Source of the DNA: Chloroflexota bacterium
GTDB taxonomy: Bacteria; Chloroflexota; Limnocylindria; Limnocylindrales; CSP1-4
Direction of reading: 5' to 3'
NCBI GenBank assembly: GCA_021825385.1
Contig: JAKAHU010000004.1
Coordinates: 1 to 33,912, forward strand
Length of the DNA: 33,912 bases
Shown: positions 11,126 through 22,751 of the stretch, in pieces
Position numbering within the stretch: the stretch's first letter is position 1
Layout of the letters: each line of letters opens with the position of its first letter
Position numbers and translations under genes: made by a program
Notes under the pieces: model-generated
What the model was told of the DNA's origin: nothing
Databases searched by the model: none
Seen by the model: only the letters and a program-made list of their open reading frames with translations

Positions 11126-11288
11126 CGACGGGGGCTAGCCGGGGGTCGGCACCGGAGGGTATGATGGCGGCGAGAGGAGATGGAGCTGCCGAGAGGCGCC
11201 CCTCCCTCCTCCCTTTGCTGGCGTCGAGCCCCGGTGACCGCCTCGTGTGGTTAGCCGGGGTTCGGCGTGTCTAGGAGGGAGATCACGA
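11126..11288 (+). promoter_or_regulatory. non-coding leader with duplicated TAGCCGGGG-TCGGC motif
   Basis: TAGCCGGGGGTCGGC (11136-11150) and TAGCCGGGGTTCGGC (11252-11266), 14/15 identical; TATGAT box at 11160-11165; RBS GGAGGGAG before ATG 11289. Confidence 0.45.
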
Positions 11289-13013
11289 ATGGCTGATGCT
11301 GTGGAGTGGCGGAACCGCATCGTTGACGAGGGGGACGAGCCGCCGGACCAGCTCTTGGCGTCGCCGTGGAATTGGCGAACTCACGGCGCTGCGCAGCGGG
11401 ACGCCATGCGCGGTGCGCTGTCGCAGATCGGCTGGATCCAGAGGGTCGTGGTGAACCGCACCACAGGCCACGTCGTCGATGGACACCTGCGCGTCGAGGA
11501 AGCCATCAGCCACGGTGACGCCACCATCCCCGTTCTGTACGTCGAGCTGTCGGAGGACGAAGAGCGGCTCGCACTGGCCACGCTCGACCCCATCGGCGCG
11601 ATGGCCGGCGCGGACGCCGCTCGGCTCGATGAGCTACTGCGCGACCTGAACACCGGAGATGAGGGCCTGCGCGTCCTGCTCGACGACCTAGCACGGCAGA
11701 ACGACATCGACTTGACAAGCCGTCCCGCTACAGATCGGCCAAGTCTCGCAGACCGTTTCCTCGTGCCCCCGTTCAGCGTGCTCGATACTCGGCAGGGGTA
11801 TTGGCGCGCGCGGCGCGCTCAATGGTTGGCGCTGGGGATACAGAGCGAGTTGGGCCGTGGGGATGATATTCAGGGCAGCGGCGCGAACTCGGCCTACAAC
11901 GGGTCGTCTGCCTGGGCAGACGACCGAGGTCCCCGACGCCGAGCTGTGGGATATCGTGCTCACGGCGTTGCTGCGACTGCGGATCCGCAGTCGCAGCAGG
12001 GCTTGACCGACAAGGCTCTTGAGGGCAGGGACGACCTGTACGGTCAGGCCGCTCGTAGGCTCGGGCGTGCTTCTCCGAGCGGTTCCCTGAAGCCTGCCGC
12101 AAGCGGACGAGACGCGGACGGCCATCTCCTCGGAGGAGATGGCCGTGGCAGGCCGATCCGAGGTCTTGCCCGGGCGTTCGGGCAAGACCTCATGCGAGGC
12201 GAGCACATTGTCGGTGCGAGACCGTCGGCCCGTGCGACGGTCTCGCAGAACCCCGACGGGACGCTGCACTACGAACCTTCGAACAACGGAGAAGGCGTCA
12301 ACGGCACGTCCATCTTCGATCCGGTCCTGTGCGAGCTGGTGTACCGCTGGTTCATGCCGGCAGGGGGATCGGTGCTGGACCCATTCGCAGGTGGGTCCGT
12401 GCGGGGGATCGTGGCCACCGTGCTGGGGCACGCTTACACGGGCGTGGACCTATCGGCGGCGCAGGTTGCGGCCAACGAACCGCAGGCCGCTCGACTCGGA
12501 TTGTCGCCGCAGTGGGTGGTCGGTGACAGCCGGGACCTGCCGACGCTCCTGCCGCAAGCGGAGTGCGATCTCGTCTTCACCTGCCCGCCGTACTACAACC
12601 TAGAGGTCTACAGCGACGACCCCGCAGACCTGTCCAATGCCGCAGACTATGCGGCCTTCCTCGCCGACTACCGGGTGATCCTTGTGCACTCGTGGGAGCG
12701 CCTGCGGGAAGATCGCTACATGGTGTTGGTGGTCTCGGAGGTCCGCGAGCGGAGCCACTACGTGAGCCTCGTGGCCGATACGGTCAATGTGGTACGTGAC
12801 ATGGGCGGGCGACTCTACAACGAGGCGGTCCTCATCAACTCGGCGGGCAGCCTGCCGATCCGTGTCGGGCGGCAGTTCGGAGTCACTAGAACCCTCGGCC
12901 GGATGCACCAGAACGTGCTGGTGTTCGCCAAGGGCGACGGTCAGAGGGCTGGGCGGGCGCTGGGTCCTGTCGAGGTCGCGGAGGGACCGGATGAGTGGGC
13001 GACGACGATCTGA
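11289..13013 (+). CDS. ParB-like nuclease domain / DNA methyltransferase fusion
   Basis: ParB-like N-terminus (GALSQIGWIQRVVVNRTTGHVVDGHLRVEEAI...IPVLYVELSEDEERLALATLD) and MTase C-terminus (VLDPFAGGSVRGIVA, VFTCPPYYNLEVYS). Confidence 0.88.
   Translation: MADAVEWRNRIVDEGDEPPDQLLASPWNWRTHGAAQRDAMRGALSQIGWIQRVVVNRTTGHVVDGHLRVEEAISHGDATIPVLYVELSEDEERLALATLDPIGAMAGADAARLDELLRDLNTGDEGLRVLLDDLARQNDIDLTSRPATDRPSLADRFLVPPFSVLDTRQGYWRARRAQWLALGIQSELGRGDDIQGSGANSAYNGSSAWADDRGPRRRAVGYRAHGVAATADPQSQQGLTDKALEGRDDLYGQAARRLGRASPSGSLKPAASGRDADGHLLGGDGRGRPIRGLARAFGQDLMRGEHIVGARPSARATVSQNPDGTLHYEPSNNGEGVNGTSIFDPVLCELVYRWFMPAGGSVLDPFAGGSVRGIVATVLGHAYTGVDLSAAQVAANEPQAARLGLSPQWVVGDSRDLPTLLPQAECDLVFTCPPYYNLEVYSDDPADLSNAADYAAFLADYRVILVHSWERLREDRYMVLVVSEVRERSHYVSLVADTVNVVRDMGGRLYNEAVLINSAGSLPIRVGRQFGVTRTLGRMHQNVLVFAKGDGQRAGRALGPVEVAEGPDEWATTI
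11902..12247. repeat. array of strong inverted repeats inside the ParB-MTase linker
   Basis: Perfect arms: 11902-11912/11915-11925; 30-bp palindrome 11969-11998; 12118-12131/12133-12146; 12160-12172/12179-12191; 12215-12227/12235-12247. A weaker 7-bp pair at 12049-12055/12076-12082. Confidence 0.9.
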
Positions 13014-15115: not shown

Positions 15116-15576
15116 CCGATCTCGCGCCGGTGACGCTGACGGAGGCGCGCCGCTTCGTGGCGGAGCACCATCGACACAACCGCGCCCCACAGGGCTGGCT
15201 GTTCGGCGTGGGGTTGCGAGAGGGCGACTCCCTCGTCTCGGTAGCGATTGCTGGTCGCCCAGTCTCTCGTAACCTCGACGACGGACGAACGGTGGAGATC
15301 ACGCGAGTCTGCACACTGGGACAACGGAACGCGAACAGCCGCCTCTACGGCGCGTTGTGTCGGGCTGCCGCAGCACTCGGGTACTCCCGGGCCGTGACGT
15401 ACACGCTGCTGTCGGAGTCCGGCTCGTCTCTGCGAGCTGCGGGGTTCCAGCAAGCAGAGCAGTTGAGCCAGCGGACCTCGTGGGCCAACCCGTCTCGTCC
15501 TCGACAGGACCGCACGATCTGGGGCGAGCGCACGCTACCGGATGAGCCGAGGGTGCGCTGGGAGCGTGTGCTGTGA
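15112..15576 (+). CDS. XF1762-like (GNAT-like) protein
   Basis: LTEARRFVAEHHRHNRAPQGWLFGVGL...RTVEITRVCTLGQRNANSRLYGALCRAAAALGYSRAVTYTLLSESGSSLRAAGF. Confidence 0.75.
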   Translation: MTDLAPVTLTEARRFVAEHHRHNRAPQGWLFGVGLREGDSLVSVAIAGRPVSRNLDDGRTVEITRVCTLGQRNANSRLYGALCRAAAALGYSRAVTYTLLSESGSSLRAAGFQQAEQLSQRTSWANPSRPRQDRTIWGERTLPDEPRVRWERVL

Positions 15577-17618
15577 GGCTGACCGCGCTTCGGTTGGTGA
15601 ACTTCATGAGCTGGGATCACCTCGACCTCGACCTGTCAGAGTGCGACGTGGTAGGCGTCACGGGCAGGGTCGGATTCGGAAAGTCGAGCCTTCTCGACGC
15701 TCTCTTGTGGGCGATCTACGGCGAGGGGCGTGCCAGCGCGGACGCGATGGTGCGGCAGGGCGAGGAGCGCGCGGCGGCCGAGGTGGAGTTCGACGCGGGC
15801 GGACGACGCGTGCTGGTGCGGCGGGAGCGCGAGCGTGGCCGGTCCACGGCGCTGACGCTGGAGGTGGACGGCCAGAGCCTCACCCGGCACACGGTCGCGG
15901 AGACGCAAGGAGCCATCGACGAGCTGGTAGGCGTGTCGTCCGACGCGCTGCTGGCGACGGCGGTCATGGTGCAGGGGCGCAGCGACGAGTTCGTGCGGCT
16001 GCGACCGGCCGAGCGCATGGCGCTGCTCTCGGACCTCGTGGTGGAGGACCCGTACCCCGCGTGGCATGAGGAGGCGAAACGCCGTCGCGATGATACACGT
16101 GAAACGGCCGCCAAGGCGGAGGCGCGTCGGGCGCTGCTGGCCGAGCAGGGCGAGCGCGCCGCGGAGTACCGAGAGGCTGCGGCTAGGCACTCTGCCGCCG
16201 CAGAGCGCGCGAGGGAGGAGGCCGAGTCGAGCCTGCGGGCGCTGCGTGACGCCGAGGCGGCCACTGCGGGGCTGCGAGTCGCGGAGGAGCGCCGAGCGCG
16301 TCTGGCGGCGGAGGTGGAGCGTGTCGCTGCGGAGCGCGAGCGACTGGAGGCCGACGTCCTTCGCCTGCGTGCGGTGGTCGAGCAGCCCGACCCGTCGATG
16401 CCACCGCGACCAGACCCCGAGGTGTTACGGCAGGCTGAGGAGGATGCCGAGGTTGCTCGCCGTGCTGCGGCCGACCTACGGCTGGCGCGGGTCGGGCTAG
16501 AGCAGGCCGCGCGAGAGGAGGAACGAGTCCGCTCGCTGGCGTATGACCGCTCGGCGATACCCTGTCACGGCGAGGGGGTCTATGCGGCCTGTCCACTGTT
16601 GGCGACGATCCCCACGGCGGAGCGGGTGCAGGCGGTCGTCGCGGCGGCTCGGGATGCCGAGTGGGGCGTCCTCGCGCTGGAGGTGCTGGCCTCCCCTGAG
16701 GAGGCGCGGCGCGAGGAGGCCGAGCGGCTGCGCGAGCAGTGGCACGCGTGGGAGCGAGACGCGGCAACAGCCGAGGCATCGCGACTGGCGCTGGCGACGC
16801 GCAGGGAGGACGCGGCGCGCGACGCTGCCTCGGCGGAGGAGCGGCTGACGAGCCTCGCTGCGGTGGAGGCCGCGTCACAGGCCGAGCTAGCAGCGCTGTC
16901 TGGTCCGGAGGCCGACCGGTTGGCGGCACGCGAGGCGATGATCACGGCGCTGCGCGAGGATGCCGAACAGGCCGCGGCGGCGGCAAGACGGCTGGGGGAG
17001 CAGGCGGCGGTGTCCGCTCGCGACGCGGATCGCGCCGAGCAGGCCGCGCGGGAGGCAGCGGAGGCACAGGCAGAGGTTGAGCGCGAGTCGGGGCTCGCGC
17101 AGTCCTACGCCGCACTGGCCGAGGCGTGGCACCCCTACGGCATCCCCCGCCTGATCGTGGAGGAGGCCATTCCCCGCATCGAGGCGCACGCCAACGAGGC
17201 GCTGGGGCGCCTGCCCGGCGGGTTCGTGCTGCGCCTGTCGACGAGCCGGGAGAAGCGCGCGGGCGGGACCACCGACACGCTCGACGTGGTGGTGGAGATC
17301 GGGAGCCGAGAGCGCGACTACGGGCTGCTGTCGGGCGGGGAGCGGTTCCGCGTCGACCTCGCCCTGCGGCTGGGCATCGCCGCGCTGCTGGCCGAGCGCA
17401 CCGGCCGGAAGGTCCAGACGGCTATCTTTGATGAGCCTCTAGCACCCGGCGACGAGCAGGAGCGGGAGGCGGTGCTGGAGGCCATCTCTACGCTCGCGGA
17501 GGAGTACGGTCTGATCATGGTCATGTCGCATGACACCGACTTTGCCGATGCGCTCCCGTGGACTCTGCGGGTCACCAAGGAAGGCGATGCCAGCAGGGCC
17601 GTGCTATCGCGTCAGTGA
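15573..17618 (+). CDS. sbcC: SbcC/Rad50-like SMC-type ATPase
   Basis: LRLVNFMSWDHLDLDLS...GRVGFGKSSLLDALLWAIYG (Walker A), long coiled coil, LLSGGERFRVDLALRLGIAALL signature, TAIFDEPLAPGDEQ, LIMVMSHD. Confidence 0.82.
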   Translation: MRLTALRLVNFMSWDHLDLDLSECDVVGVTGRVGFGKSSLLDALLWAIYGEGRASADAMVRQGEERAAAEVEFDAGGRRVLVRRERERGRSTALTLEVDGQSLTRHTVAETQGAIDELVGVSSDALLATAVMVQGRSDEFVRLRPAERMALLSDLVVEDPYPAWHEEAKRRRDDTRETAAKAEARRALLAEQGERAAEYREAAARHSAAAERAREEAESSLRALRDAEAATAGLRVAEERRARLAAEVERVAAERERLEADVLRLRAVVEQPDPSMPPRPDPEVLRQAEEDAEVARRAAADLRLARVGLEQAAREEERVRSLAYDRSAIPCHGEGVYAACPLLATIPTAERVQAVVAAARDAEWGVLALEVLASPEEARREEAERLREQWHAWERDAATAEASRLALATRREDAARDAASAEERLTSLAAVEAASQAELAALSGPEADRLAAREAMITALREDAEQAAAAARRLGEQAAVSARDADRAEQAAREAAEAQAEVERESGLAQSYAALAEAWHPYGIPRLIVEEAIPRIEAHANEALGRLPGGFVLRLSTSREKRAGGTTDTLDVVVEIGSRERDYGLLSGGERFRVDLALRLGIAALLAERTGRKVQTAIFDEPLAPGDEQEREAVLEAISTLAEEYGLIMVMSHDTDFADALPWTLRVTKEGDASRAVLSRQ

Positions 17619-22688: not shown

Positions 22689-22698
22689 GGCAGAGGGC

Positions 22699-22750
22699 GT
22701 GTACACGAGGGCGTGTACACGGTAGAATGTGTACACGGAGGTGTGTACAC
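22699..22750. promoter_or_regulatory. operator array: four GTGTACAC palindromes around a TAGAAT box
   Basis: GTGTACAC at 22699-22706, 22713-22720, 22729-22736 and 22743-22750; TAGAAT at 22723-22728. Confidence 0.8.
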
Positions 22751-22751
22751 G

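Follow-up and report, generated by a model that had tools for sequence, protein, structure and literature searches.

Clustered perfect hairpins in the translated linker of a phage ParB-like–DNA methyltransferase gene and their probable origin by template switching

The fusion gene and its five hairpins

The window analysed here, meaning the whole 33,912 bp contig, encodes a phage terminase and belongs to a bin of 371 contigs that is 88% complete. Its forward strand carries a gene in which a ParB-like domain is fused to a DNA methyltransferase (MTase) domain (Table 1); the probable start is the ATG at 11289, 3' of the motif AGGAGGG. The gene matched PHROG 12517/498 (DNA methyltransferase), PHROG 620 (ParB-like) and, weakly, N6_N4_Mtase, and a PDB fold search returned generic Rossmann methyltransferases only. 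AlphaFold2 predicted confident folds at residues 13–140 and from residue 345 onward, with pLDDT values below 50 at residues 193–271, 294–318, and 332–342 (numbered from a start at 11283), and the linker between the two domains is, according to this model, probably disordered. Among 40 homologues, the invariant residues end at residue 192 and restart at 343, and the length of the linker varies between relatives, one of the two arrangements considered in the initial annotation of this DNA. Elsewhere in the window, an SbcC/RecN-like ATPase gene lies downstream of the MTase gene (15573–17618), and an imperfect inverted repeat, CGTGTACACG...GTGTACACG, is found at 22698–22751 and is a possible operator.

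The initial annotation had described five perfect hairpins with dissimilar arms at 11902–12247, in a stretch that stays open in frame between the ParB-like part and the MTase core. All five were present, with arms of 11–15 bp that are unlike one another; the ORF is uninterrupted throughout, and the folded blocks of the AlphaFold2 model flank the low-confidence residues in which the hairpins lie. No other hairpin with arms of at least 11 bp and a loop of at most 10 nt occurs in the contig. At the same thresholds, dinucleotide shuffles of the gene contained a mean of 0.003 hairpins (maximum 1 in 300 shuffles) and protein-preserving synonymous shuffles a mean of 0.02 (maximum 1 in 500), against the five observed, so the density is indeed far beyond composition and a chance origin is ruled out. 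An assembly artefact is also ruled out, because many independent metagenomes contain similar arrays and three contigs have one linker in common.

Table 1. Features of the fusion gene, with positions in the window
Feature	Position	Strand	Basis or content
ParB-like/DNA methyltransferase fusion gene	ORF 11247–13013; gene 11289..13013	+	ORF and translation
Linker between ParB-like and MTase domains	11859..12308	+	Residues 193–342 (11283-start model), mostly low confidence
Hairpin 1: GGTCGTCTGCC-TG-GGCAGACGACC	11902..11925	+	11 bp arms, loop 2; encodes GSSAWADDR; phase 3
Hairpin 2: perfect 30-nt palindrome TGCTGCGACTGCGGATCCGCAGTCGCAGCA	11969..11998	+	15 bp arms, loop 0; encodes AATADPQSQQ
Peptide module ASPSGSLKPAASGRDADGHLLGGDGRGRP	12069..12155	+	Window form of PGGSxRPA...RGDGxGR; recurs in other phages
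Hairpin 3: ACGGCCATCTCCTC-G-GAGGAGATGGCCGT	12118..12146	+	14 bp arms, loop 1; encodes DGHLLGGDGR
Hairpin 4: GAGGTCTTGCCCG-GGCGTT-CGGGCAAGACCTC	12160..12191	+	13 bp arms, loop 6
Peptide module GLARAFGQDLMRGEHIVG	12162..12215	+	Most widespread of the linker modules
Hairpin 5: TGCGAGACCGTCG-GCCCGTG-CGACGGTCTCGCA	12215..12247	+	13 bp arms, loop 7; native ATVSQ codons under right arm
Peptide module ATVSQNPDGTLHYEPSNNGEG	12234..12296	+	Hairpinned in L287/L288 (PDGTLAYRP), hairpin-free in window
Methyltransferase core (SIFDPVLCE ... DPFAGGSVRG ... TCPPYYNLEVYS)	12315..13010	+	PHROG, weak N6_N4_Mtase match, AlphaFold2, PDB fold search

Hairpins and simple repeats in related linkers

The first relatives found, mostly from other phage groups, had short linkers that were hairpin-free save for one short hairpin in L005. 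Closer relatives, obtained from three further IMG/VR scans, showed the same phenomenon in other sequences, and the array is therefore not private to the window. Among 196 unique homologous linkers, 35 contained at least one hairpin of at least 10 bp and 17 contained at least two of at least 11 bp. In nonredundant long linkers chosen without regard to hairpins, 62 hairpins of at least 11 bp occurred in 44.5 kb, compared with 48 in 928 kb of flanking sequence and none in 113 kb of the adjacent MTase core. Clusters of at least three hairpins within 600 bp were confined to this linker across 1.96 Mb, and a control using the host bin gave an ordinary background of 10 hairpins in 181 kb. Many homologues are hairpin-free, among them 10 of the 30 long linkers in fused genes, and the occurrence of hairpins is scattered over a homologue tree too poorly resolved for the number of origins to be firmly counted. 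A terminase search for sister phages found no relatives, a plasmid search for the linker modules gave no match, and a class-wide genome search recovered the window alone.

Simple repeats (poly-G tracts of 8–12, AGGC, ACCG, and AG tracts) were approximately 15 times denser in the long linkers than in the flanks. Of the 62 long linkers that are split or frameshifted, 21 contained them, compared with none of the 30 fused ones, and the window linker has no such tract. The repeat-bearing linkers, none of which was found in frame, may represent off states or independent genes, or may be of some other nature. Long AGGC, ACCG, and AG tracts were seen in linkers without a single open frame in L210 (2332 onward), L242 (3043 onward), L325 (443 onward), and L343. 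Between L326 (2744–3554) and L330 (1330–2142), two poly-G tracts of 9 versus 10 change which upstream modules share the frame of the MTase, a difference in sequence that suggests a phase-variable phage methyltransferase. In L286 (Microcystis phage Mae-JY30; 2506–4117), L300, L313, and L337, the gene is split within the linker into one ORF for the ParB-like part and another for the MTase, and the MTase ORF starts MAK..ARTFGQDLMRGEH. An extra domain inside the MTase domain, between DPFAGG and CPPY, was observed in L124/L287, L206/L364, L284 (Pseudanabaena phage Pam4), and L285 (Erythrobacter phage R6L); in L287 it matches PALP (pyridoxal-phosphate dependent enzyme), and the Pam4 record names the gene likewise.

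Peptide modules, paired arms, and codon register

Short peptides, arranged in an order that differs between phages, make up the mosaic of the long linkers, and the hairpins overlie these peptides. The recurring modules include PGGSxRPA...RGDGxGR, NGLLGxSEQARSHY, LARTFGQDLMRGEHVVG, LTWVxGD..LDDTSRKIL, QNPDGTL, and others, and they are also present in hairpin-free linkers. Within a hairpinned module, one arm is generally conserved and the other follows it. The right arm of the FGQDLMRGE module is coding sequence that is conserved and also found in hairpin-free genes, and the left arm is its reverse complement, synonymous bases included, with GLAR, LNPAR, SNPGR, or SNLAQ as the left-arm peptide. 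Hairpin 4 of the window is of this kind, its right arm consisting of the conserved GQDL codons and its left arm of the reverse complement of those codons. In the DETSRK module, it is the left arm that is conserved and the right arm that tracks it (NLAAGR, NLAGGR, NLSAGR). Compensatory changes between relatives, which the initial annotation had treated as informative, were found: two-sided changes occurred in 9 of 12 pairs of the DETSRK module, and slid controls gave far lower values.

The GLLGxSEQA module differs in that both of its arms are conserved, and the position of its hairpin differs from linker to linker. The near-identical DNA of this module is no proof of recent transfer, because third codon positions pair with first positions and the peptide, together with perfect pairing, would nearly fix the bases. 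Its shifting position and its in-frame placement within a coding gene recall mobile palindromic elements inserted in the manner of Rickettsia palindromic elements. Of the ideas offered in the initial annotation, the serial insertion of palindromic units came nearest, but its mobile, Rickettsia-type component was not supported. All nine contigs that carry the GLLGxSEQA hairpin pattern among 2.9 million viral contigs, this being the one pattern scanned, carry it in this linker. Furthermore, the arms within the gene differ and form no repeat family, hairpin-free homologues of the modules exist, and the likeness of module DNA is explicable by the conserved peptide and perfect pairing. Mobile insertion is therefore very improbable.

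The window shares modules with L288 over 12118–12296, but mostly not the sites of hairpins. In L288, where the homologue of hairpin 3 is DGHTVRGDGR, no hairpin corresponds to hairpin 3 or hairpin 5 of the window; the QNPDGTL hairpin of L288 has no counterpart in the window; and the GQDL hairpin, with a longer stem in L288, is the only one in common. This lack of site conservation, and the many hairpin-free homologues, make it unlikely that mRNA hairpins were selected to slow the ribosome at the domain boundary, giving the ParB-like domain time to fold ahead of MTase synthesis. Such a role would be consistent with the position of the hairpins between two domains that are folded in the AlphaFold2 model, with the covariation of the stems, and with the folding of the linker RNA, which is far better than that of shuffles (z = −6.2), although this last value follows from the hairpins themselves. 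Imperfect hairpins numbered 7, compared with 61 perfect ones, and their seven mismatches included four wobble pairs and one A–C, too few to reveal a clear preference for wobble. A structured RNA element, another proposal of the initial annotation, is likewise not supported, given the location of the hairpins on different modules in different phages. No Rfam covariance-model match was obtained at E ≤ 1, and no intrinsic terminator (a GC-rich hairpin followed by a T run) was found.

The relation of the hairpins to the reading frame was analysed by the register approach applied to the coding palindromes of Nematomorpha mitochondria (PMC6649704). The 61 in-frame hairpins were distributed 26/33/2 among codon phases 1/2/3, whereas 31% of short inverted repeats in the MTase core were in phase 3. 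The probability of two or fewer phase-3 hairpins was approximately 5 × 10−8 on a matched null and approximately 5 × 10−4 when 33 modules, grouped by eye, were counted once each. The conserved module peptides also run through the hairpins in the frame of the gene. Together, the phase-3 depletion and these in-frame peptides indicate that the linker DNA is read as protein, and, judged by codon register, the hairpin region is translated in the frame of the gene.

These observations argue against a bypass of the region by the ribosome and against its removal from the RNA, both of which the initial annotation had entertained and both of which are extremely improbable. Hairpins do accompany known ribosome bypass sites, and a frame +1 codon signal between hairpins 1 and 2 could be read in the same sense. 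However, a bypass of the T4 gene 60 kind involves an untranslated gap after which the flanking frame is rejoined, and here the frame is continuous, the peptides crossing the hairpins are conserved in frame 0, and the phases are biased. As for the frame +1 signal itself, codon signal and GC3 at 11910–11970 favour frame +1 (EVPDAELWDIVLTAL) over the ORF frame, and the stretch may be an old, compensated frameshift; no homologue of the frame +1 peptide was found. Hairpin 1 is one of the only two phase-3 hairpins.

Probable template switching and comparable systems

Changes within hairpins were caught in two near-identical pairs of phages, with their direction not polarised. Over 402 nt, only two bases distinguish L350 from L351, both of them in a loop (TC versus GA, the reverse complement). 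Between L326 and L330, a loop is flipped (AAT/ATT) and an arm-homogenising base extends the stem; two poly-G tracts (9 versus 10) and two further substitutions also separate this pair. Among distant phages, loops likewise occur in both orientations (GAA/TTC and AAGCAA/TTGCTT). Template switching is described as leaving homogenised arms and inverted spacers as its signature (PMC8604942), and it can also generate perfect stems and imitate compensatory evolution (PMC8794818). Both kinds of change were present in the near-identical pairs, alongside arms that are exact reverse complements down to their synonymous bases.

We consider it likely that the hairpins are translated coding palindromes that were made, and have been kept perfect, by short-range template switching during replication of the linker, an explanation absent from the list in the initial annotation. 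The nascent strand would fold back, or the sister strand would be copied, at a chance near-palindrome; one arm would be overwritten with the reverse complement of the other, sometimes with the loop flipped; and recurrent events would accumulate in a probably disordered, fast-changing, modular linker between the ParB-like and MTase domains. Template switching accounts for the perfection of the stems, the templated arms, the loop flips, and the scattered occurrence of hairpins. We infer both that template switching at replication was responsible and that the linker either tolerates the resulting variation or gains from it.

Tolerance alone is insufficient, because hairpins are absent from the other linkers and from the intergenic DNA of these phages. 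Nor does the process appear, from the sequences, to be simply neutral, because the phase bias and the modules with both arms conserved (GLLGxSEQA) point to constraint on the peptide. Template switching does not in itself account for the restriction to this linker, which could reflect selection for RNA pausing, for DNA recombination sites, or for diversification. The second of these would mean that the palindromes are selected as DNA, forming cruciforms that promote breakage and recombination and thereby shuffle modules between phages. The many orders of the modules, the hairpins on them, and the SbcC/RecN-like ATPase encoded in the window, which belongs to a class that acts on hairpin DNA, are compatible with this. 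However, the modules also occur in hairpin-free linkers, SbcC-like genes are common among phages, and no junction between modules was traced to a hairpin, which leaves selection on DNA recombination quite improbable. Under selected diversification, the linker would be a dedicated generator of diversity in which selection keeps near-palindromes and simple repeats. Fold-back copying, loop flips, slippage, and module exchange would then keep changing the joining peptide and, with it, the target, partner, or on/off state of the enzyme, as in a contingency locus driven by templated hairpin mutation. We offer this proposal tentatively and regard it as possible but doubtful.

Perfect hairpins with compensatory changes are usually taken as evidence of functional RNA. 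The linkers provide a large natural phage series in which the same signature has apparently arisen from DNA copying in translated sequence, and the codon register provides a check from within the data. They also offer a compact locus at which comparison of near-identical genomes could quantify mutation by template switching, the inversion of loops, and the slippage of simple repeats. Should the variation be under selection, it would be a phage way to diversify a DNA-modifying enzyme for which no description was found among the open-access papers searched.

The template-switch mutation mechanism and coding palindromes as such are already known; no description of such an array in a phage gene, or of this ParB–methyltransferase linker, was found among the open-access papers searched. 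Several systems show partial likeness. The plastid trnH-psbA spacer undergoes minute, palindrome-associated loop inversions among close relatives (PMC2903610), but it is described there as non-coding, whereas the phage linker is translated. In phase-variable bacterial methyltransferases, simple repeats shift the frame of the enzyme (PMC4889913, PMC5149525), whereas in the phages the repeats lie in the two-domain linker of relatives and not in the window. Rickettsia palindromic elements also lie within coding genes without abolishing the protein, but in the outline given in PMC6649704 they are transposable insertions, unlike the phage hairpins, which have unrelated arms at one locus. Template-switch systems share with the linkers arm homogenisation, spacer inversion, multi-nucleotide changes in single events, and apparent compensatory changes (PMC8794818, PMC8604942). 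Those events were found in RNA genes (PMC8794818) or in 39 yeast protein genes (PMC8604942), whereas the present array is dense and serial and lies at a single locus shared by many divergent phages. The mitochondrial palindromes of Nematomorpha are likewise perfect inverted repeats inside translated genes, with phase 3 depleted among long repeats and homogenisation by template switching suggested (PMC6649704), and the phage linkers also combine perfect repeats in translated sequence with phase-3 depletion (2/61). The palindromes of Nematomorpha are spread over several mitochondrial genes with arms of up to 142 bp (PMC6649704), whereas those of the phages occupy the linker of one gene, with arms of 10–23 bp on shuffled modules.
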